A DNA stretch of 64,000 bases from Tomocerus qinae (Eukaryota; Arthropoda; Collembola; Entomobryomorpha; Tomoceridae): NCBI GenBank assembly GCA_020055645.1, contig CM034546.1:27156001-27220000 (forward strand), written 5' to 3'. Below are positions 10,629 through 63,115 of the stretch, piece by piece. Made by a program: the position numbers and the translations under genes. Position 1 is the stretch's first letter. Every line of letters begins with the position of its first letter. Under the pieces are notes generated by a model. It did no database searches and was not told the origin of the DNA. It saw nothing but the letters and a program-made list of their open reading frames with translations.

Positions 10629-12385
10629 TCAGAGACCAAAGCGCAAAGTACTTTGAGAACTGACATTTCTTTTCAAATTGTAAATTTGTTTCAACTGTTC
10701 GGATATTTCTTTTCGTCTCTGTTCATTTATATTATCGGTTTGTTCAGTCACAAATATTTCTTCTTTGCCCTCGCCAGCCAATATAAACCCTTTGGTAGTT
10801 AAGAGTCCCGAGCGATCGAACATAAAATGTATTTGTCCAATACTGCAACCACTGCAAAACCACCTGCAATACTGCAATTGGTTTTGTGACCCGCATCGAT
10901 GGAATAATTTCCCAATGGAATTTTATTGCCCTGAAGCTTGACTAAATTAGCACAAACAGGAGTCCCACCTGCTGGTACCCCAAATGATTCGAGCTCCTTA
11001 GTAGTTGGTAATGGTGTGTTTCTTTCAATCGTCAATTTATTCGATTTGTCTTGAAATTCAATAGCAACTCCGTACTGTAAGGCTTCTGTAACAACAAATT
11101 GTTCTCCTCTTTGCATTGACACTGCATAGTAAATCGTTCCCAATACAATCGCATTGGTAAAAGTAGCAGAGGAAATCTCATTGCAAAATTTCTTCACTTT
11201 ATTCTCATCTGGAGTGAATTCTTTACTACACTTCCCGGATTTTATTAACATACAATACCCAACACTTATCTTTTGGGTCACATCGGCTAAAATAACGTCC
11301 AGATCTTCAGGCTGAGTGCGAATAATTGAATTTAAAAAATTTGATATATATCCAGAATTTTTTAATTCCTTTACAAATGGTGGACTGCAAGAGGATAGCA
11401 TACTGATTTTTCGAGCTGTGACTTTGAATACAGATGAAGTATCATTTTCAATTTCAGATGAGTAGGAATGGACCAACAGGTTGACGTTTCCTCTTTGACT
11501 ATTATAATCTGCAGAAAAGCGGAAAGTCACCGCGGCTGCAGCGTTTTCACTCAAGATCTGCACCACTTCAAAACCAGCCAAACTGGCGCTGTCTTTTATC
11601 ATTTTTCGTTGTACGTGGTCGAAAGCATTCGGGACGCTTATCACGCATCTGTAAATTTTTTCATTGAAATATTCTGAAGCTGTTGATTTTATGTAGCCAA
11701 AAACCAAAGACACTATTACTTCCTGTTGAAGTGATTTTACATTTCCCCTCACCACTTTTTCATAAATGGAACCTACTTTATCCAACAAAACTGTTTCCAT
11801 TTTTAATCCAGATTTTTGATACGCTTCTTTAGCTTCATTTCCAACAGAAATATCTTCAGACAAATTAATGAAGTTTGGTATTGCTGCATTATTAGATATT
11901 TCGAAAAGTTTAGGGCTTCTTTCTTTGTATATTCCAAATTTGATTTCCGCCAGGCCGAATTGGATTCCCAAAATAGAAGATCCAGCCGCTTTGGATTCTG
12001 TATGAGAGACATATGCATTACGAATTCTGCAGTACTCTTCTACTATATTTTCTGAAACATTCTCAGAAAAAGGCTCTATTAATTCCTTTGGGAAAGACGA
12101 CAACTCATTGTAAAATATGTCTAAAGCACTATTTCTGGCCTGAACATGAAACTCGTACAGATTTGTGACTTTATTTGGATCAATATCTCCGATATTGCCT
12201 TGTAATTGATTCTGATAAGCCTTAAATGCCTTAGTTGCAGCTTTATTTGCATTTTCTACGACGGTTGTGTTTTGGTTTTGCATAAATTCCGTTTTGAGAC
12301 CACCCTGTATCCAATTGGCCTTTTGTCCAAGTTCTATTGAAATGGCTTCATCTACAGCATTTATTTGTTGATTTAAGAAGCCCCC
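10629..12385 (-). pseudogene. Hsp70-like protein, partial paralogue with frameshift
   Basis: The open frame from about 12385 carries a helical segment (LYEFHVQARNSALDIFYNEL) followed by an Hsp70-type nucleotide-binding domain: SSILGIQFGLAEIKFGIY where canonical Hsp70 has the phosphate-1 DLGTT loop, then IPNFINLSEDISVG and CVISVPNAFDHVQRKMIKD with SENAAAAVTF. The second phosphate loop (DLGGGT) is not recognisable. Near 10850 the frame breaks; the C-terminal part (FDRSGLLTTKGFIL to the stop at 10629) continues in another frame. A canonical AG precedes the open frame, so 12385 is probably an acceptor, but no upstream exon was found. It is clearly similar to but much diverged from the Hsp70 part of the 58164-63115 gene, and lacks most of its helical region. 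ATP hydrolysis seems unlikely. Confidence 0.75.
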
Positions 12386-15250
12386 CTGTGTGAGTAATAT
12401 ATTCAAATAAGATTCAAACCATTTTCACAGCTGCTATTTTCCTCTGCCCAAAAATGCCTTTTTTTCATTGGAAAACAGAAAATATTTCCTGATTTTATCA
12501 TTTGGAAATAAAACATATTTTGTCCAGATCTATATCCAATAAAAATGTGGATATAATTTTCATGAACAGAAAGTCAGTGGTTAGTTTAACGTGTTAAAGT
12601 TAATCCACCAGCGCGAGCGATATCAAAGAAAAATTTGACAGCCATGTTCAGCAATTAATACATATTTCATTTCCTAGCTTTTTTTATGGCTGTACCTGGA
12701 GAAATTTGAAAATACTTGACAACTAAGTTCTGATTTATTTTAGCTATACCTAAAAGTCATATTTTTGGATGTGATGCTTACTGTGTTTTTATTACAGGCC
12801 ATCATGCATGCACTAAGTCATCTATTAGCGGATTAAAAAAGAATAAGACTTTAATTTGACTGAATAATAACATCACTACTAATATAAACATAATCGAAAT
12901 TCTTGTATGTACGGATGTTTGTATGTTGTGTGTTCGCAGTTTCAAAACAGAATGGTCTAAGTTATGAATGTTATTACGCGGCCACTGTACTTGGTTTAAT
13001 GCATATATACACCCTTGCGCGATGATGAAAGTTACTGTTGTGCGTCGTGGTAGTTGAAACTTCTTCATTCAATCATTACTTTACTATTAGATAAACGGCA
13101 AAAGTTAGTCACGTGATAATTCCGTTTGTATGTTTGTACTTCTCTGTGTGATAATTTTCCCCAATTCTAAAACGCAGCTAAGCACCAAACACCAAGCACA
13201 ATAACGCACTAAATTGTTCAAATCCCTACACGTCCGAACCAGAATAACTTCAAGCCAGTGTTGAAAGCGGTTGTCTGTGTACACCTGACATACACAGACA
13301 ACCATTCACAGCAATGCATCGTATGCATGGATCCATGTTGGATATGCCATGCATCCGATTTCTGCTCCGCTCTCCTTCCAATCCAAATAGCCAGGACAAA
13401 TTAGTATTTGGAACAATTGTGTGCTGACTACCGGGCCGAGAGGAGAACAATAAATATATATTGTGAAACATACACTCGTTGTCTCTTCCACTCTCTCAGT
13501 CATACTACCCGGAATCGGTTTACGGATAAACCGATTCATTCCGAGTTCCATTCATACACTCAAGCAAGCACAGTCACACTACGAGTCACACTTACGGCTC
13601 TCGCGATTACGTAATCGAATACCGGTTACGAGGACTTGGGATAACTAGATCACATTCCGAGTCGGACATTCCCAGTCACATTCTGGACGGAGTTGACATC
13701 CGGGAGTCACTCGGACATACCTTGGACTTGGCCAACTCCATCCCCAGCACATCCACACACACACACACACACTTCATAGTCCACCGGCAAAAGTGGTATT
13801 ATAGGTTAGTAACTAATTTACTAACCAACATAGATCGGGATCACTCAGGACGAGCTACCCGATACTCCACCGCAGTGTATATATCAAACCTTCGCACTTT
13901 GCGATCAATAATTTCATAATAGATCATGCAATCTTCAGCAAGGCCGTCCACCCCCCCCCCCCCGAAATCGAGAAAATTAAAGAAATTTTTGTCTAAAATC
14001 GTAAAAAATCGCATAAATTTTTGCTGGTCAGTACTGTGTGGTTAGTATAGGGATTCTACTCTTCTCCCATTTTTCATTTCCCCCATTTCTCCTCTTGTTC
14101 TTTTCAGAATAAATTGGAAAACTACAACATTCTTCTGTATAGTAATTGATTATCACTATGAACGACTGTAGAGTATAATTTTTTTTGCCAATTTATTCTG
14201 AAGAGTAGAGGAGGGATCTTAAATTTAAGCGGGTTGTAGATAAGATGATTTAAAAAAATTAGACTCCGACTTTTGATTCACCTTATTATGAAATAATAAG
14301 AATAGACTACAAGAAGTCTTGATTACTGTGTGGTGAGTTACTCTGACTCACCATTATGCATATTGTCAAGTGTTATTCTCTTTTATCCGACGGAGACAAA
14401 TAAACTGCTTCCCCTCACTCATTTTCGTATTATGGGTCTTGTAATTAATTAACTCTAAAGGCTGAATACCCATGACTACTTGAATCTTGGTCTCAGTATA
14501 ACAGACAGGAATGGTACTTAGGAGTAATAAGGTCAATTCGAAAAAAAGTCCCATATAAAAGCTCAAACTCTCTTATGGGACATAAATTACAATCAAAACC
14601 ATTCAATTTTCTAATTGATCGCTATATTGTCAATTAAGGCTAACTTGACCTCAAAGGCGATTGTCAATTAATGGCAGTATGTATAATGGTGGTTCAGAGT
14701 ACCGTAGATCCTTAGCCAAGTGATCATGGTGGGCGACGGGAGTAAGTTTCCAATGCCGACATTTCAATTTAAAAACAAAAGTTGGTTGAAGTAAGGCAGT
14801 CGTTGCACAAGTACTTATCACAACCACTCTCTTACTTCAGCCCAAAAGGTTGATTTGGTCTTAGTAAGGCGAAGTTTTGGAATAATTTTTGACTCTCTGT
14901 CAATGTTAAATCTCTTCCCCTGGCCCACTAAAGTAGAAACCGTGCGTGATAAGGTCAATTGGAATCAATATAAAACATCTGTGCATCTGATTTACATTCT
15001 ACTTAAATCGTACAATACTGCCCCGGAATACACACTAGCTTTATTTCTAACAGGGCCTGGGCCCTGTGACCGCCTAGTTATAAAATACAAAAACCACAAG
15101 GCTATACATTATTCCTGGTGTGAAATTTGCTAGCTTTGAAAGCCTACTTCTATTTATATATAAGATGTACTCCTACGATGCACGAGGCGAAATTTCCAAA
15201 TTTAAAAATAATGATCATGGCCCGAATCATCTACCACTCGAAAGAATAAA
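12386..15250. other. Intergenic/repeat-bearing spacer between Hsp70-like and kinase copies
   Basis: No homologue of the long helical region found at the equivalent place in the right-hand gene. It holds a hairpin at 13270-13302 (arms GTTGTCTGTGTA / TACACAGACAAC), another at about 13510-13538 (AATCGGTTTA / TAAACCGATT), a (CA)n tract near 13756, a C13 run at 13951-13963 followed by a fragment resembling the inside of the hAT-like MITE at 48052, and at about 14525-14585 a segment similar to the inverted-repeat element at 50060-50300. An open frame at 14855-15133 (+) has no recognisable family. Confidence 0.5.
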
Positions 15251-15252
15251 AT

Positions 15253-17158
15253 TTATAGAAATTTACATATCTGTGAAGGAAAACGTATTTTTATTGGCAT
15301 TTCTTTTTCATAGTCTCCTGACTTAATACGCTTATTTGGTTCTTCCTCCGTCAGTTGCAATATTAGCGAATTCAGCCAGTTTACATTCTGAAGTCTACTT
15401 CCTGTATTCCTGTGATATTTTATTTTCTCGAATTTTTTGGCCAAATTGTTTTCCTTTGTGGGATCAAGGATTTCAGATAAAATCAATCCAAATGAAAACA
15501 AATCCGCGTGTTGACCATACTTCGCCTTGCCATCTTTATGTTCTTCATCCATCTCAGGTGCCCGATATCGAGTATTCCATTCCGCAAGTGTCATTGTTTC
15601 TTTCTCTTAAGTTTTGCTTTGTATTGAAAGACCAAAGTCGCCGATTTTGACAGGAGTAACGAGTTTAAGGGCTGAAAAGTATATATTGTCTGGTCTTAGG
15701 TCTCGATGAGTTATTCCTTTTCCGTGTATGTAAATTATACCATCAGCTATTGCCTGTCCAATTTCTTCGTTTGTTGACATTTTTGGCTCGTTACCGTCTT
15801 TTAAAATTTTATTCAACCATTCTCTCAAAGTTTCGCCACAAATTTCCATTTTTATGTAAAATCCAGTGACTAAGCCATTACTAGCAGAATCAAAGCATCC
15901 TGCAAAAAACTCATTGGCTGAAATTGGCATTGGCTGAAACTTTGTCAGTGGGGGCATCCCATTGAAGCAATTTCTTCATCTTATCAGTCGATAATGAAAA
16001 TCTGTCAGAGGATTTGTACTTAACAACATTTATGTAGTTTTGCTTGGTGATCTAGTTTTGCTTGATTCCTCAACTCCCTTAAAATGCCAAATTCATCAGT
16101 GTTACCAAAGCGTTTTCTGTTTGGAATGATTTTTATAGCATAAATCTGATGATCCACTGTGTGCGATGCGGCAATAACAACTCCAGAAGATCCGCTGCCT
16201 AATTAAAATGCTTGTTGTGTAATTCCAATGTGTTTGGTGGAGAGCATACGCTAGTCTTTTTTTGTCTGCAAATACTCGAATTTTAGCATCTTCAATTATC
16301 TTTAAAATTGTTGTTGGCTCAGCTCCAAGTATTAGCAAAGCCGTTTCGACCGTTGTTGCGCAGTGTTCTTCAAATTCAAATTGTGTAGCATCTTTCGATT
16401 TTGCATAATGTTTCTTTCGATTTTGCATAATGTTTCTTTCGATTTTGCATAATGTTTCTTTCGATTTTGCATAATGTTTCTTTCGATTTTGCATAATGTT
16501 TCTTTCGATTTTGCATAATGTTTCTTTCGATTTTGCATAATGTTTCTTTCGATTTTGCATAATGTTTCTTTCGATTTTGCATAATGTTTCTTTCGATTTT
16601 GCATAATTTTTCTTTCGATTTTGCATAATGTTTCTTTCGATTTCGAATATCACGAAGCTTTATCAAAGCATTTTTTTCATTGTCGTTTAGTTTTGTTTTA
16701 TGTGGCTCCCAACGAAATTCCAATGACCATTTAACACTAGTGGAGTATCCCATTTTGTAATGTCCCGGGAGTTAATCTTCTCTTGCTCTTTTGTACGTTC
16801 CATTTTTTATGGGGGTGAGTATTGAAGAAATCCTCTTCCGAACTTTTTTCCCATTTCTGACTTCTTTCCGCTAAATGGTTTTGAAAATATTCAGTAAATC
16901 CCTCCACTAAGGCATCTATTTTTACTCCATACTTGTCATCAACATCTAAAATGTTTATTTTCCCATATAATTGATACTCGAAACAAAAGATTTATTTTTT
17001 TGACTTAGTAAAACGAAATTTCATATGGTCATATTAATTGATTTATAAATATTCTTCATTTTATGAACGATAGAATGACATTAGTAAATTTCGAAAATTT
17101 TAGATATAAGTTAATCAAAAATGAATTTAATTAAGAGCTTACCCAAATTTGCATCCAT
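15253..17158 (-). pseudogene. HEPN plus eIF2-alpha-kinase-like gene, decayed near-copy
   Basis: Equivalent exons to the right-hand gene are visible: a 16-nt first exon at 17158-17143 (ATG GAT GCA AAT TTG G|GTAAGC) and a second from 16945 downward. Kinase parts survive (YIKMEICGETLREWLN, HRDLRPDNIYF, KIGDFGLSIQS, WNTRYRAPEM, GQHADLFSFGLILSEI), nearly identical to the other copy. It is broken by the 22-bp repeat expansion in the HEPN motif, frame breaks between about 15957 and 16260 (including extra sequence near 16030 and a ruined glycine loop around 16190), and an in-frame TAA just after GLSIQSKT (about 15609). At the 3' end the splice donor that joins the kinase to the Hsp70 exon in the other copy is lost (CAG|GTAAGC there, CAG|ATATGT here), so translation would end at 15253. 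Confidence 0.85.
16390..16640 (-). repeat. 22-bp minisatellite, about 11 units, inside the HEPN-coding exon
   Basis: Units of TTTCGATTTTGCATAATG plus TTTC are repeated about 11 times with one variant unit (GCATAATTTT near 16606). In the intact copy the same spot is single-copy and encodes RNRTKHYAKPK, the HEPN RNxxxH motif. Because 22 is not a multiple of 3, each unit shifts frame, and none of the three antisense frames contains a stop; the translations all read repeated NRKKHYAKSKET / LCKIERNIMQ. Confidence 0.95.
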
Positions 17159-39292: not shown

Positions 39293-49196
<9,904 letters not shown>

Positions 49197-49776
49197 GTTA
49201 TTTCTTCCCAAATGATTATTTTGTGATCTTCAAATACTGTAACACTAAAAATTAAAACCGTATTAGATTAGACTGACAAATAGGCACTGCATATACGAAA
49301 TTGGCAGAAAAATGAAAACTATATCTTTGTCTTAAGTTAATTTCAAAGGTTAGGTTGTAACCTGTTGCTTACCGGTTGTGTCTCCTGCTGACATTGTTTT
49401 CGCTGTTGACAACTGTAAATTTATTATTTAGGTGTCATCTAATTCCCTTGTAATACACGGCTCATCCCTTCTACCCGACAACCGACGGCACAGTACCCGA
49501 CAGCCGACACCACCCTACCCGACAACCAAAGCCACCGAGCCCGACAACCGACGCCCCAGGACCCGACACCCGACGACACCCCACCCGACAACAGACACCA
49601 CCGGACCAGACAACCAAAACCACCCCACCCGACTACCGACGCCACCGGACCCGACAATTGAATTTACAAAAAAATTTAAAAAATAACTCAATATTTCGGA
49701 ATCTCAAAATCTTAGGGTGGACTAGGATCAGGTTGGCTTTGTCAACTGAACAAAACCATTTCGTCCACTAGAAATA

Positions 49777-51112: not shown

Positions 51113-51650
51113 TAACCGTTTTGTCCGGATGAAATACATTTTATCCGGATAAAATCACTTTTCCCATTGGACAAAAACCATTTTATCCAACTTGTCGACA
51201 TGTCCCTTTCCGGATACCGCAACTGTGACCAGGATAATGTTTAGAATAATATTTTATTTTAAAACTTAGGTAGTGATATTACGTCACCATTGCTGCAATA
51301 AAAATTCCCCATTAAATACATTCCAATAAAGCGAAAGATTGTAAATTAAATAGTAAAGATAGTTCAATTATTTTGTTTTCTTTGTAACATCTGGTACATA
51401 ATGGCTTTATTAACAATACTGCCACAAGTGTATTATTGATTGAGGAAGTAAGTGGATACAATTAACTAATTTAAGCTTAGTTAGGTGATAGAGTTAAGTT
51501 ATTTAAAAACTCACATTATAGCAATTAAATCTAGTATTTTTTTTATAATAGTTAAGTAAATAATATTAACACATTTTGGTTACATTCCATAGGGCTTATT
51601 TTCAAAGTGTTATTTTAAAAACTCACATTGTAGCAATTAAATCTAGTACG

Positions 51651-54600
51651 TTTTAGCTCGCCTGAGGAAGCGAGCTTATAGAACCGTACAGTCCGTCCGT
51701 TCGTCTGTTCGCCAACACTGTAACTTCAAAAGTCAAAGACGGAAGTTGACCAAACTTGGCAAAAACAATGCCTATAGACCGGTGACGAACCCTATTCATT
51801 TTGGTTCAAATCGGTCAATAGGTTGCTGAGATGCCGCGCGCTCACTTTGTCTTTATTTTGATAGTCAAAGTAAAAAAGTAGCATAAAATGGACATCAAAA
51901 GTTCAATTGCGTTTCCTATAAATTGTTAGGTTGATGGTGAATAATATTTAACTCCGCTCTACTGGCTTTTAAATTTTATAGTAAAGCCACTAAAATCGGT
52001 AAAAATTGTTATGGGATCAACATCAATCTTTTTCAATTGCTTTTGTATTTCATAGTTATTATTTATGTACTTTGATTTTATATTGATTTTCATAGTTAAT
52101 ATTAATTAATTTTGCATTTCTGTTGCTTTTGATAATCAACATTAATCAATTTTTATTTTCTTTTGATTTTGACACTCAATATTCATCAAATTTGATTTTC
52201 TTTTGATTTTGATACTCAAAATTAATCAATTTTGATTTTCTGACTTTAATAATCAATATTAACCAATTTTGATTTCTTGTGGATTTTGATAATCAATATC
52301 AATCAGTTTTGAATTCCTGTTGATTTTAATACTGAGTGTGAATCAATTTTGAATTTCTGTTTATTTTGATACTCAATATTAATCTAGGTATTTTGATTTT
52401 CTGGTGATTTTGGTAGTCAACATCAATCTATTTTGATTTGCTGTTGGTTTTTATTTTGGATAATGAATTATACTAAACTAATTTGAATTAGTGTTCACTT
52501 TATTAATCAAAATCATAATTATCTCCATAATTGATATACCAAAAATGTGCACACGGTCCCTTTTACTCAGGCGAGCTTCTGTTACGGCTTGCTGTAGGTT
52601 TTTAGCTCGCCTGAATAAGGCAGCTTATAGAACCGCACAGTCCGACGTCCGTCCGTCGCCACGATAACTTTCGAAAGCAATGACGGATATTGACCAAACT
52701 TGGCAAAAACAATGCGTATGGACTGCTGACGATCCCTATTTAATTGGGGGGTAAATCGGTCCATTGGTTGAAGAGATACCGCGCGCTCACTTTGTCTTCA
52801 TTTTGATAGTCAAAATGAAAATTTGGCATTAAATGGACATTAAAAAGTTGAATGGCGTTTCCTATAAATTGTTAGCGTTATAGTATAAATATTTAAAATC
52901 CGCTTCTACCAAATTTAAAATTTTATAATAAAGCAAATTAAACCGGAAAATAACTATTAGACGATGGAAAAAAATTTCCTTTAAATTGTGATAATCGTTA
53001 CTAACCGATTTTAATTTTCTGTAGACTTTAATACTCATAATCAATCAATTTTGAATTTCTGTTGATTTTCATAGTCAACAATAAGCAATTTTGATTTTCT
53101 GTTGATTTTCAGTCAACATTAATCAATTTTGATTTTCATAGTCAACAATAATCAATGTTGCTTTTCGGTCGATTTTTATATTCAGCATTAATCAATTTTG
53201 ATTTTCTGTTGATTATGATAATCGATATCAATCAATTGTGATGGCCTGTTGATTTTAATACTCAATGTTAATTAATTTTGATTTTCTGTTGATTTTGATA
53301 GTCAACGTCAATCTATTTTGATTTGCTGTTGATTTTGATAGTCAACATCAATTTATTTTGATTTGCTGTTGGTTTTTATATTGAATAATGAATTATAATA
53401 ATCTAGTTTGAATTAGTCCTTACTTTAATAATCAAAATAAATTTATTTCTTTTATTATTACAACCAAAATGTGCACACGGTCCCCTTTTACTCAGGCGAG
53501 CTTCTGTTACGGCTTGCTGTAGGTTTTATAATAGATAGGCAAATAATATTAACACATTTTGGTTACATTCCATAGAGCGTATTTTCAAAGTAGATGGTAG
53601 TTTTCCTGACCATTTTTTTCTCCTTCCAGCTGTTCTTGTTCTATTGTTCATTGCTTTCGCTTCACAGGTTCTGTTGGAAATGGTAGCTAGAGTTTCGATG
53701 AAGCGAAAGGAACGAACAATAAAACTGTTGATAGTCAGGAAAACTAATAGAAATGCCATAATACCAATTTGTGTTAGCAATTATGCTAGTCATTAAATAT
53801 ACACTTACCTGCCTGGTGGAGAAATATACACTTATTTCTTGAACATTTTGGTTTCAAAATCTTTTATGAAAATAAACAGAAAATCAAAATAAATTATTAT
53901 TGACTATGAAAATCAACAGAAAATCAAAAAAATATTATGATTGACTATTTAAAACAACAGAAAATCAAAATAGATTATGATTGACTATTAAAATCAACAG
54001 AAAATCAAAATAGATTATTATTGACTATTAAAATCAACAGAAAATCAAAATAGATAATTATTGACTATGAAAATCAACAAAAAGTCGAAATAGATAATTG
54101 TTGATTATTTAAATCAGCAGAAAATCAAAACAGATAACTGTTGTCTATGAAAATCAACAGAAAATCAAAATTGTATAATGTTGAATATGAAAATCAACAG
54201 AACATCAAAGTTGATTAAGAGTGAGTATCAAAATTAACAAAAAATCAAAATAGAATAATTTTGAGTATCAAAAGAAAATCAAAATCGGTTAATATTGACT
54301 ATCATAAATAAAACCAATTCAAAAAATGTAAATTTGACTATCAGTTTGCATATAAATGCGAAATAGATTTATTTCCATTCTATAATAGGTATTCTCCGGA
54401 TTTATTTACTTCATTATAAAATCTTAAATTTGGTCGAAGCGGCATCAATATTTTATACTATCCCGCTAACAATCCATAGGAAGCACAAATGAACTTTTAA
54501 TGTCCATTTAATGCCATATTTTCATTTTGACTATCAAAAAGAAGACAATGTGAGCGCACGTCATCTCAGCAACCTATGGACCAATGTGGCCCATTTTCAA

Positions 54601-56883: not shown

Positions 56884-57551
56884 ACTTGAATAAAAGATAC
56901 AAACAGTTATATAGCTCATTTTTTATCAATGATTATTTTTTAAAGGTTATCTGAATGGGTTGATAATCGTATGAAAAATAGCATTCATGGGTTAGATTAT
57001 GCAATGCATTGAACCTTAAACATTTCTCAATGATAAAAACATGAGCTGTAGTATAGTCTACCCTACCCTCTAAGTTTTAAAATAAAATATTATTCTAAGC
57101 ATTATCCTGGTCACAGTTGCGGTATCCGGAAAGGGACGTGTCGACAAGTTGGATAAAATGGATTTTGTCCAATGGGAAAAGTGATTTTATCCGGATAAAA
57201 TGTATTTCATCCGGACAAAACGGTTATTTCTAGTGGACGAAATGGTTTTGTTCAGTTGACAAAGCCAACCTGATCCTAGTCCACCCTAAGATTTTGAGAT
57301 TCCGAAATATTGAGTTATTTTTTAAATTTTTTTGTAAATTCAATTGTCGGGTCCGGTGGCGTCGGTAGTCGGGTGGGGTGGTTTTGGTTGTCTGGTCCGG
57401 TGGTGTCTGTTGTCGGGTGGGGTGTCGTCGGGTGTCGGGTCCTGGGGCGTCGGTTGTCGGGCTCGGTGGCTTTGGTTGTCGGGTAGGGTGGTGTCGGTTG
57501 TCGGGTACTGTGCCGTCGGTTGTCGGGTAGAAGGGATGAGCCGTAATACAC

Positions 57552-58163: not shown

Positions 58164-61100
58164 TTAATTGTTTCTTAGCATCGATGTTTCATTCAATTTC
58201 TCAAGGCTGTGAATTTCTTTTAACATCTCCATGATATCTCTTCTTTTGCGTTCGTTAATATTTTCTGTTTGTTGATTGACGTACACTTTCTCCTGGCCAT
58301 TACTAGTGAATATATATCCTTTGGTTGATAATAGACCCGAATGGTCGATGTTGAATACGATTTGTCCAGGATTTATGTAAGAATGAGAATTGAAATGGGG
58401 TTGAATTGAATAATTACCCAAATGAGAACGCCGTCCTTGGATTTTAGATACACTTACAGGTGAGCTCGGTAACGGTAAATTAAATTCCCTTGATAATGGA
58501 ATAGATGCGTTTTTATCAAATATAAACGACCTATCTGGAAATTCTAAGCAAATTCCGTACTGCAAGGTTTCAGAAATCAAGAAATTACTACGTTGCATAA
58601 TTTCTGCGGCATAATATATCGTTCCGTTAACGACGGCTGTGATAAAAGGTGTCTGTAAAAGTATTTTGCAGAATTTTTTCGTCCCACTTTCATCCAGGTA
58701 AGTAGTAGATTTGCATTGCCCGGATTTGACAAGTAGTCCGTAATTAACTCCGACATTTGCTTTTTCAATAGCATCGTGTAAAATGAGCTCATTATCTGTA
58801 GCAGATGCGAAGTAAATTCTACTCATTATGTTCCTTAGCCCCCCTTTTTTCAAATCTGGTAAGAAAGCTGGGCTGCAGGATGATATCATTTTTATTTCTT
58901 TCTCAGTGACACTAAAAATCGACACTGAGTCAATTTCTGTGGAAGACTTGTGACATTGGACAAGTAGGTTTACATTTTTAGCTGTACCAATCTGTCTTGC
59001 AAAACGAAAAGTGACAGCGGCGGCAGTAGATTCGCTCAAAAGTTTCACGACTTCAAATCCTGCCAAAGTGGCACTATCCTTAACCATTTGTCTCTGCACG
59101 TGATCAAAAGCGTTTGGAAGGCTTATCACGCACTTGTAAATGTCTTCCTTGAAATATCCTGTGGCGGTTGACTTAATATATTCAAATATCAGCGTTACAA
59201 TTACGTGAACGTTGAGTTTTTTTACGGTTCCCATTACATTGGTCTCATAAACTTCGCCAACGCTGTTAATTAAAACATCTTCCATTTTAAAGCCTCCCTT
59301 TCCATTAAGATAAAGTTCTTCTGCTGAGTACCCAACATAAATCCGGTCAGATAAGTTGACAAAATTTGGTATTTTAGTTCTGGTCGATGTTGGATAGTAA
59401 TGTTGAGGATTTTTGTCTCTGTAGACTCCAAATCGAAATCCAGCCAGACCAAATTGAATTCCTAATACTGAAGTTGGGGATTTAATTTTCGCGAATTTTG
59501 TTTTAATAGTACGAATTGTTTCGTATTCTCTATCTATATCTTCTGAAAGATTTGTAGCAAAATGGTCTACCAAGTCCATTGGATAATTTGGAAATTCCTT
59601 GAAAAACATATTGATTGCATTTTCTTTAGCAATTTTGTGCCAATTATGTAGCGAAGCTTCATGACATTCAATTCCTTTGGTACTGCTTTCTAACTGTGTC
59701 CTGTAAAAGTTCAAAGCATCGCTTACAATTTGTTGTAACTTCTTATTCTGTATTTTCAATTGGAATTTTTTCTTTACACGGTTTTCGTAATAACTCGTTA
59801 CCTTTTCTTCCAATAATTTCACAAATGGGCTGACCCATGCCTCATTTTTTATAAAGCATTTATTCCTTAGTTTCTGTATCACATCGTTGAAGAACGTATC
59901 ATGATTCTTTTCAAGTACTTCTTCTGAGCTAATTTGTTCCAAATTGTCCATCAATGTTTGGTAAAGTTGAAATGCCTCATCCACTTCTTCATTTGCCTTT
60001 AACTTGCATTCAACGATTTGTAGCTGCCTCTCATCTAATTCTTCTGTAATTCGCTCGATTGTTTCGTTTTGAGCAGCTTCTAGCAATGTTTGGAAAGCTG
60101 CTCTATAATTTTGATCTTTCTTGATGTCACCAAACAAATCTTTGATTGCTTCAATGAGAATAGTTACTTCAGAGTTTTCTATTCTTCCATGAATGAATAT
60201 TTCATCTGAGTTGTAATAAGGATCTAGATATTGAAGAGCTTCTGATAAAATCGATTTTTTATTCTCTTCAATGATCTTCATACATTGCAATCCCAAAGAT
60301 TCAAAATTTTTAATAGCAACAGTTTTAAGTTCTGTAAGCTCACTGTCTAACCTGGTCTTAAATTTATGTTGGGTGTTATCTGGTACCTTTTCTAATTCAA
60401 TCAAAAACGGACTTTTTATTTTACTTTCGGCTTCACCTACCCAAATTTCAAAATCTTCATTTGGTCCTATCTCATGCTCAATGATTGCCAACTCTTGTTT
60501 ATAACGGTCTTTTGTCCTATCTAATGAATATACAAGTCGAACTGTCGTTGCTGCCATATTTTTACTGTTTTCTTTATCTAGCTTTTGAAATATTTGGTTT
60601 AAATCAGTTTCTAAAGCTGAATGCAATTCTTTTTCCGTCTTCTTATTGTAGAAAACCGGAATATCTTGTTGGACATGCTTCAAAGCCATTTCATGACATT
60701 TCTGTAGAACGCTTTGTTCCATAAATGATTTTTCATTAAGCATTTCGGTCATCTGCAGGTTGTATTCTCTTACTGCGCTGGAATGAGCAACTTCCCATTG
60801 GGCTGCATCTTTCTTCAACTCCCAATGTGATTTAAGGTCAACAAAAATTGCATTAATTTCTTCTTTAAGCAGTTGAATATTATTTTCGTAATTACAGTCT
60901 TGATATTCATTGAAATATCCGCCATGAACAGTGTCAAACTGTCCTTTTTCAATTCATCATGTCTAACCTCAATTTCCTGCTCTGTAGCATCCCCGGATAG
61001 AATCATTTTCATGTCATCAATGTAAATGTCCTTAACATAATTTTTCCGGTGTGTAATGAATTCTTCCAAAAGCTCGCCATTATTATTTACGGTAAGTGGC

Positions 61101-63115
61101 AATTGATATTCCTGAAATAAGGTAAAATATCATTATGTTAAAACAAATGTTGTCAGTTACAGGTAAAAAGGAGTGTAAACGATAAGAATTTTAATGTTTT
61201 CAAAATCAATTAAACAGTTGCGGTTGCGGTTAAAGGAAATTATGGAAAAAACCAAAAAGAAATTTATCAAATACCGCAACAATATCAGTGATGATGACAG
61301 ATTAGCCTATCTTTTATTCTCTAAAAGGAAATAACTAACCCTTTTGACTTTGCAAGGTACTCTGGCCCTTCAAAGAAACTCAGAGTCGAATAGTATTACT
61401 ATGACAAAAATACTCGTGATCTTGTTGATACGATTTATGAAAAACTAGAACCCATTACATTTTAAAAGAACTATATGCTTACCTGTGCATTAAAACGGAA
61501 TTTTATTGGCATTTCTTTTTCACAGTCTCCTGACTGTATTCGTTTATTTGGTTCTTCCTCTGTCAGTTGCAATATCAGCGAATTCAGCCAGCTTACATTA
61601 TGAAGTCTACTTCCTGTATTCCTGTGATATTATATTTTCTCAAATTTTTTGGCCAAATTGATTTCCTTTGTGGGATCAAAGATTTCAGATAAAATCAATC
61701 CAAATGAAAACAAATCCGCGTGTTGACCATACTTTGCTTTTTCCATCTTTATGTTCTTCATTCATTTCAGGTGCCCGATATCGTGTATTCCATTCCGCGA
61801 GTGTCATTGTTTCATTCTCGTAAATTTGGCTTTGTATTGAAAGACCAAAGTCTCCGATTTTGACAGGAGTAACAAAGTCCAGGTGTGAAAAGTATATATT
61901 GTCTGGTCTTAGGTCTCGATGAGTTATTCCTTTTCCGTGTATGTAAATTAAACCATCAGCTATTCCCTGTCCAATTTCTTCGCTAGTAGACATTTTTGGT
62001 TCTTCGCCGTCCTTTAAAATTTTATTCAACCATTCCCTCAAAGTTTCGCCACAAATTTCCATTTTTATGTAAAATCCAGTTACTAGGCTATTACTAGCAG
62101 AAACGAAGCATCCTCCAAAAAACTCTCTAGCAATAGCTGAAATTTTGTTAGTATGGTCATCCCATTGAAGTATTTTCATCATCTTATCAGTCGATAATGA
62201 AAATTTGTCAGAGGATTTGTACTTAACAACATTTGGGTGATCTAGTTTTGCTTGATTCCTCAACTCCCTTAAAATGCCTACTTCATCAGTGTCGCCAAAG
62301 CGTTTTCTGTTCGGAATGATTTTGATAGCATAAATCTGATGATCTACTGTGTCCGATGCGGCAATAACAACTCCGAAAGACCCGCTGCCTAATACTTTAT
62401 TGGTTGTGTAATTCCATCGTTCGATGACATGCAGAAGATTCTTTTTATCTGCAAATACTCGATTTTGGGCATCTTCAATTATCTTTGAAATTGTTACTGA
62501 GTCTGCTCCAAGAATTAGCAAAGCCGTTTCGACCGTTGTGCAGTGCTCTTCAAATTCTAATTGTGTAGCATCTTTCGGTTTTGCATAATGTTTCGTACGG
62601 TTTCGAATATCTCGAAGTTTTATCAACGCATTTTTTTCATCGTCGTTTAGTTTTGTTTCATGCGGCTCCCAACGGAATTCCAATAGCCATTTAACACAGA
62701 GTGGAGTATCCCATTTCGTTATGTCCCGAGAGTTGATCTTCTCTTGTTCTTCTTCGCGCCATTTTTTATGGGGGTGAGTAATAAAGAAATCCTCCTGAGA
62801 ACTATTCTCCCATTTCTGACATTTTTCCACTAAATTGTTTTGAATGTATTCAGTAAATCCCTCTACTAATGCATCTATTTTCACTCCATACTTGTCATCA
62901 ACATCTAAAATGTTTATTTTCCCATATAAATGATACTCGAAACCAAAAATGGTATTTTTGACTTAGTAAAACGAAATTATTTCATATGGTAATATTAATT
63001 AATTTATAAATTTTCTTCATTTTAAGAACGATGGAATGATATTAGTAAATTACGAAAATTTTATACATAAGTTAATCGAAAATGAATTTAAAAGCTTACC
63101 CAAATTTGCATCCAT
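58164..63115 (-). CDS. HEPN - PKR-like kinase - GBP/atlastin-like helical stalk - Hsp70-like fusion gene
   Basis: Three exons join in phase: 63115-63100 (MDANL), 62904-61483 and 61111-58164, about 1,461 residues when two single-base breaks are allowed for. Residues ~70-145 form a DZIP3-type HEPN domain with RNRTKH (RNxxxH, nuclease motif). Residues ~175-470 are an eIF2-alpha-kinase-like kinase: LGSGSFGVV, YAIKII, FYIKMEICGETLREWL, HRDLRPDN, KIGDFGLS, APEM. Residues ~480-1025 are helical and start like the atlastin/GBP middle domain (RHDELKKDSLTLF...GGYFNEY). From ~1026 an Hsp70 fold follows: SVLGIQFGLAGFRFGVY, IPNFVNLSDRIYVG, CVISLPNAFDHVQRQMVKD, TVVNG-like TAVVNGTIYYAA, then NIDHSGLLSTKGYI from the substrate-domain region. 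DLGTT and DLGGGT loops are lost. Frame breaks: T5 run 61738-61742, and about 60925-60950. Two separate genes remain possible if the intron is not used. Confidence 0.8.

Follow-up and report, generated by a model that had tools for sequence, protein, structure and literature searches.

IRE1 and RNase L, both of which have a stress or infection output, carry a KEN domain after the kinase and are not known to possess an atlastin-type stalk or an Hsp70. PKR and PERK are not known to have a HEPN, stalk or Hsp70 part, and their sensors are double-stranded RNA-binding and luminal domains. To our knowledge, a HEPN RNase, an eIF2-alpha kinase and an Hsp70 are known only from separate proteins. KEN is itself counted as a HEPN domain in passages of PMC3710099. 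The gene considered here lies on the minus strand of a 64,000-nucleotide (nt) stretch of the Tomocerus qinae genome (C1:27156001-27220000, within 334 Mb; hereafter, the window) and runs from an ATG at 63115 to a stop codon at 58164. From its exons and those of its paralogues, a HEPN domain, an eIF2AK-like kinase, an atlastin-type helical stalk and an Hsp70-derived end are very probably fused in one protein.

Exon structure and the splice junction

Pfam analysis of the open frames of the window returned Pkinase (1.9e-28), HEPN_Swt1 (1.7e-5) and HSP70 (1.2e-13). The features of the gene are collected in Table 1. Counts over 22 loci refer to 20 fetched regions (L001-L020) together with two copies in the window; each region is centred on one of 20 of the 76 listed kinase matches in the genome, mostly the best-scoring ones, and strong matches near C1:34.30 Mb, near C1:23.916 Mb and on C34, for example, lie outside this sample. 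Six loci pair HEPN-kinase with Hsp70-like parts, namely both window copies, L001, L003, L004 and L009.

Table 1. Positions of gene features and of a second paralogue within the window.
Feature	Position	Strand	Remarks
Exon 1	63100..63115	-	ATGGATGCAAATTTGG with start codon, then phase-1 donor GTAAGC
Exon 2, HEPN and kinase	61483..62904	-	Preceded by TTTTAG acceptor; ends CAG/GTAAGC; open reading frame 61685-62962
HEPN domain	62438..62904	-	HEPN_Swt1 profile and family alignment
HEPN catalytic-type motif RNRTKH	62588..62605	-	RN...H pattern
eIF2AK-like kinase domain, broken here	61483..62431	-	Glycine loop, YAIK, HRDLRPDN, GDFG and APE all found
Kinase frameshift, one surplus A in an A-run relative to L001	61738..61742	-	L003, L004 and L005 likewise one base shorter
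In-frame TAA, kinase C-lobe	61630..61632	-	Common to the window copy and L001
Intron, 371 nt, GT...TTTCAG, phase 0	61112..61482	-	Sequence and paralogue alignment
Exon 3	58164..61111	-	Begins after TTTCAG; ends with stop codon 58164..58166
Atlastin-type helical stalk	59475..61111	-	HHalign to the L022/L023 stalk and stalk hidden Markov model match
Stalk frameshift, one base short relative to L001	60914..60915	-	Placement approximate
Pseudo-Hsp70	58167..59474	-	Nucleotide-binding half incomplete and lacking ATP-site motifs; substrate-binding-like tail weakly supported
Second, more decayed paralogue	10632..17158	-	Exon 1 17158-17143; HEPN-kinase pieces ~15270-16948; pseudo-Hsp70 10641-12424

An earlier note on this DNA had claimed that the kinase exon is joined to the next exon by a CAG/GTAAGC donor at 61483 and a TTTCAG acceptor at 61111, in phase 0 on both sides of a 371-nt gap. 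The junction was found as described and is repeated in paralogues. Since the same donor codon, phase and TTTCAG/GA acceptor recur in L001, L003, L004 and L005, where the acceptor follows after 371, 172, 172 and 359 nt, respectively, it is not a chance occurrence. At 17/22 loci a phase-0 GT donor follows the kinase at precisely the homologous codon boundary; L008, L010, L019 and L020 have no GT, and in the second window copy GT has become AT. The first three of these exceptions form a supported branch in an 18-row kinase tree that leaves out the window copies, L009 and L020. Upstream, exon 1 retains its ATG in 8/8 aligned copies and its GT donor in 7/8 (ATAAGC in L009).

A stalk profile matches 58-532 nt past the donor at 10/22 loci (the window copy, L001, L003, L004, L005, L012, L013, L016, L017 and L018), L001 and L004 by construction since both contributed to the profile, along with L022 and L023. 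In L012 the match starts 58 nt after the kinase in the same frame, placing the kinase and a stalk-like segment within one 528-codon frame. At L011 and L014 a stalk-like exon is discernible by eye only.

The complete arrangement is preserved in L004 (C1:27231500-27241400, minus strand), which lies ~13 kb beyond the right end of the window. Its three exons join in frame to give 1,459 residues and a stop codon with zero internal stops, in the order HEPN, kinase, 172-nt intron, stalk and Hsp70-like region. Two stops flagged there by the genome search, one TAA and one TGA, were dismissed as they sit just before the exon 2 acceptor and at the gene end, outside the coding reading. Thus, the proposal that the Hsp70-like protein is the C-terminal half of a HEPN-kinase protein is supported at the level of sequence by the intact L004 and the conserved donor, but the window's own copy is broken.

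Identity of the four parts

The amino terminal domain had been described in the earlier note as a DZIP3-like HEPN with an RNxxxH motif. The HEPN profile match and the motif, RNRTKH, were both found; the DZIP3-like type was not, as the Swt1-like model is nearer. Among the copies scanned, DZIP3 matched only L006 (0.0025, ahead of Swt1 at 0.0041) and L010 (0.03, below Swt1). The window domain scores 25.5 bits against HEPN_Swt1 (PF18731) by hmmscan, just under the cut-off of 27.5, and is listed over the cut-off at 27.5 bits in a whole-genome scan that yielded three such places in all, including the window, L001 and L002. By hmmscan, one of seven copies exceeds 27.5 (L002, 27.6). An RNxxxH-type motif is present in 13/13 HEPN-bearing loci, or 13 of the 22 overall, and the HEPN domains may be active RNases. 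L004 also holds a further, decayed HEPN-kinase fragment, from which the motif region is missing.

The kinase is PKR-like, as had been proposed, PKR (2.7e-22) and PERK (3.5e-22) being the nearest solved kinases for the intact L004 domain. The top eight of 262 distinct PDB sequences are all PKR or PERK (2.7e-22 to 1.4e-20). With the broken window kinase as the query, PERK is first (8.6e-20) with calcium-dependent kinases close behind. The DFG pattern is found at 22/22 loci, the HRD pattern and the glycine loop each at 21/22 (not L019), and the catalytic lysine pattern at 19/22 (not L011, L015 or L016); the lysine, glutamate, HRD and DFG are invariant across five aligned kinase copies. By analogy, eIF2-alpha is the putative substrate.

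The stalk leads to a different group of genes in the same cluster. When the stalks of the window copy and L004 were aligned by HHalign to that of L022 and L023, the E-value was 9.3e-49 over 464 columns. The L022 gene (3679-8148 of that locus, plus strand) is a single 1,490-codon frame composed of a GBP-family GTPase (5.2e-40), a helical stalk and a canonical Hsp70 (1e-180). L023 (185-4237, minus strand) has the same three parts with the first part of the GTPase in another frame, and its GTPase has atlastin-1 as best match (5.9e-21). The GBP/atlastin-like stalk of the earlier note is thereby upheld as to homology with GTPase proteins, but its parent is of the atlastin type and not the GBP type. 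Ten places within C1:26.89-27.56 Mb have a GTPase match immediately ahead of a stalk match on one strand, and at eight of these an Hsp70 match occurs as well; these pairings were called by position, with the DNA read for two of them, L022 and L023. No GBP GTPase match was obtained by Pfam in the frames of the window or L004. At L021, what remains of a GTPase matches weakly (0.027, below the cut-off) and is followed by a pseudo-Hsp70 of the window type. Since the C-terminal half is homologous to this atlastin-type GTPase/stalk/Hsp70 family, the simplest history is probably that a pseudo-Hsp70 member of the cluster exchanged its GTPase head for a HEPN-kinase head.

The Hsp70 assignment also holds in part. 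The Pfam match in the window reaches 50.6 bits against a cut-off of 20.6 but spans only 83 residues, identifying a partial nucleotide-binding half. The ATP-site motifs are gone: IDLGTT, the KRLIGR lysine, DLGGGT and GGSTRIP are absent from the window copy, L001, L004 and L021, and from the second window copy where it is covered, and are retained in L022 and L023. The (N/T)EPTAAA segment persists as SES(T/A)AAA in the pseudo-Hsp70 copies. Aligned by HHalign with the canonical Hsp70 of L022 and L023, the nucleotide-binding half gave 1.9e-9 over 169 columns. A substrate-binding half in the tail is likely but weakly indicated by sequence: in local alignment of the tail with the substrate-binding region of L022, 21 (window), 3 (L004) and 17 (L021) of 2,000 shuffles scored as high, and four control stretches gave no signal.

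Decay, selection and competing explanations

The earlier note had overlooked three lesions in the window copy: a one-base insertion and a TAA in the kinase, and a one-base deletion in the stalk. The window copy differs from its twin L001 at 15 of 4,999 aligned bases (0.3%) and by two one-base frame-breaking indels near 61742 and 60914. The extra A near 61742 shifts the kinase out of frame at about residue 411 and, read strictly, the HEPN-kinase frame stops before the splice donor. L001 has neither indel, yet carries the TAA of 61632-61630, where L003 and L004 have AAA and L005 has AGG; therefore, the kinase frame is cut in both twins. Assembly errors could account for the two indels, but hardly for the TAA that both twins carry. 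As judged from these lesions, the window copy is probably a recently decayed, non-working paralogue. Directly behind the HEPN motif of the second window copy lies an expanded short tandem repeat (~16395-16640).

Pairwise ratios of nonsynonymous to synonymous substitution (dN/dS) are all below 0.46, with 0.06-0.38 for HEPN, 0.11-0.28 for the kinase, 0.42 for the stalk (one pair) and 0.23-0.45 for Hsp70. The looser values of the stalk and Hsp70 could reflect either rapid evolution or a partly relaxed constraint. Between L001 and L004, dS is 0.41 for HEPN, 0.29 for the kinase, 0.40 for the stalk and 0.27 for Hsp70; similar values in both halves (0.27-0.41) are the expectation if the halves were duplicated together. 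The HEPN and kinase values of L003/L004 (0.21 versus 0.05) are out of line and may reflect gene conversion. The kinase tree groups the cluster copies L001-L005 in a single clade (99/97), in which L001, L003 and L004 bear the Hsp70-like part and L005 a truncated stalk only. PHR-like exons follow related kinases in L015 (1.9e-4) and L006 (0.016), both under the Pfam cut-off, and in L014 by eye. From these sequences, the family looks modular and fast-expanding, its effector heads staying constant while its ends vary. Spectrin-repeat exons occur downstream of the kinase-stalk genes of L012, L017 and L018, and could belong to neighbouring genes. No HEPN-kinase relatives were found in viral contigs or GTDB genome contigs with two peptide patterns per scan, nor in phages.

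As a whole, the family is interpreted with about even confidence as a lineage-expanded multidomain sensor-effector of HEPN, kinase, stalk and pseudo-Hsp70, and several observations weigh against that interpretation. The fusion is read from DNA sequence, and among the six loci with both HEPN-kinase and Hsp70-like parts only L004 is intact. HEPN_Swt1 scores fall under the cut-off in L004 (21.5), L010 (20.5), L007 (18.2), L006 (17.8) and L008 (16.7). At nine of the 22 kinase loci (L011-L019), no HEPN turned up in the roughly 4 kb of upstream DNA that was fetched; coupling of the RNase to the kinase is thus not universal. Demonstrating an atlastin stalk directly from the PDB was given up, as phmmer with the window stalk alone gave zero matches, and the direct stalk-to-atlastin match is non-significant (independent E-value, i-E, 1.8e+02); the stalk is linked to atlastin indirectly, by way of L022 and L023. 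When the C-terminal tail was searched as a profile against the PDB, no Hsp70 was recovered, and against L023 the tail score was reached by 1036 (window), 583 (L004) and 1266 (L021) of 2,000 shuffles. With similarity to L022 and not to L023, client sensing is thus weakly grounded.

Two explanations would remove the premise of a functional fusion protein. That the HEPN-kinase and the stalk-Hsp70 are separate adjacent genes duplicated as one block is highly improbable. It would accommodate kinase matches without a nearby Hsp70 match, stalk-Hsp70 matches without this kinase nearby, and a junction read from genomic DNA; however, a gene boundary has no space in the 172-nt gap of L003 and L004 or in the single frame that spans both parts in L012, the kinase exon closes with a splice donor rather than a stop at most loci and is met by a conserved acceptor, and L004 has a methionine early in exon 3 where L001 and the window copy have a leucine. 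It is also unlikely that the whole subfamily is dying, as a recent tandem expansion of functionless, decayed copies. Stops, frameshifts or a truncated stalk do mark the window copy, L001, L003, L005, L009 and the second window copy, but L004 is intact, and the dN/dS values given above, looser in the stalk and Hsp70, also count against it.

Elsewhere in the window, inverted near-identical copies are found at 49457-49776 and 57225-57544 (100%) and at 51113-51269 and 57070-57226 (98%). In both cases one copy lies immediately downstream of the gene, and the repeats are probably a mobile element. A perfect inverted repeat at 47038-48986 (721-nt arms, 100% identity, 507 nt between) is either a young foldback element or an assembly artefact. 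A tandem array of 40-bp period occupies 53888-54327, and a P-element-like transposase (TNP-like RNaseH, 3.7e-12) with an adjoining THAP domain (1.6e-17) lies at 1-1152 and 1742-2140 on the minus strand. In the genome, TTAGG arrays gave 184 and 216 exact six-repeat matches against a control of 0; the repeat is arthropod-like, and many of the listed arrays are inside contigs.

Proposed role and comparison with known systems

The most likely role of the fusion protein would be that of a sensor that stops translation under stress or viral infection. The Hsp70-derived end may recognise a signal of stress or infection, either an exposed hydrophobic peptide or RNA, upon which the molecules would cluster through their stalks. 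Clustered kinases could then autophosphorylate in trans, as PKR and PERK do, and HEPN domains could pair and cleave RNA. Kinase and HEPN outputs would thereby provide two routes, both leading to translation arrest. Taken as a whole, this sequence of signal, clustering and double output is tentative, and we give it somewhat less than an even chance.

The C-terminal half may be assigned other duties. A rather unlikely variant, drawn by analogy, is an RNA-triggered shut-off device in which the pseudo-Hsp70 end binds RNA or ribosomes and not misfolded protein. The loss of the ATP-site motifs is in keeping with it, and degenerate Hsp70-like domains beside HEPN RNases are argued to suit RNA binding in passages of PMC11090510; the system treated there, the bacterial CoCoNuT, is however very distant. 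The C-terminal halves may also merely oligomerise or localise the protein, in association with membranes as in atlastin relatives, leaving the HEPN or the kinase as the sensor. This too is unlikely. A stalk homologous to that of an atlastin-type protein and the PHR-like or shorter stalk exons after some family kinases agree with it, but the Hsp70-derived part is under some constraint.

In the fusion protein, three shut-off or quality-control modules are united on a stalk of the dynamin-superfamily type, and its likely origin can be traced within one gene cluster. Should the protein prove active, it would add a new class of translation-arrest sensor, found in an animal that lacks interferon; a dead Hsp70 as ligand sensor also becomes a testable question. 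Among the matches listed for titles and abstract openings of the open-licence literature, there was neither a HEPN-kinase-Hsp70 fusion nor an atlastin-GTPase/Hsp70 fusion.

Known systems share parts of this composition. The nearest relatives by HEPN type are the active Swt1-type domains that passages of PMC3710099 report from Daphnia (46 copies), Naegleria and dictyostelids. The type by Pfam, the active-type motif and the multiplication in an arthropod are all shared; however, the eukaryotic domains are described there as solos, whereas here they are fused to a kinase. CoCoNuT systems, as set out in parts of PMC11090510, combine a GTPase, degenerate Hsp70-like nucleotide-binding and substrate-binding domains, coiled coils and HEPN RNases. 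They are multi-gene operons with McrB-type GTPases, and the likeness noted here is one of domain make-up. In the expanded immune-type TRADD-N proteins of the oyster, HEPN and HSP70 are among the variable domains (PMC8195603); these proteins have a TRADD-N core, and the passages that describe them mention no eIF2AK-like kinase or atlastin stalk.

The atlastin and GBP GTPases share a homologous stalk by way of the GTPase-stalk-Hsp70 genes of the cluster, and differ in having the GTPase head in place of which the HEPN-kinase stands here. PKR and PERK offer the nearest solved kinases. IRE1 and RNase L resemble the fusion protein in joining a kinase to a HEPN-superfamily RNase with a stress or infection output; in contrast, the Swt1-like HEPN precedes the eIF2AK-like kinase here, the reversed order that had been proposed, and a stalk and Hsp70 follow it. 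Speculatively, the protein may be viewed as a head-swapped analogue of IRE1, PERK and RNase L, cytosolic and made of a single chain, in which an Hsp70 sensor with a dead ATPase would trigger a HEPN RNase and an eIF2-alpha kinase at the same time. It would then be one branch of a modular receptor family, with pseudo-Hsp70, PHR-like or short-stalk ends, that works in the manner of vertebrate interferon effectors or NLR-type receptors.

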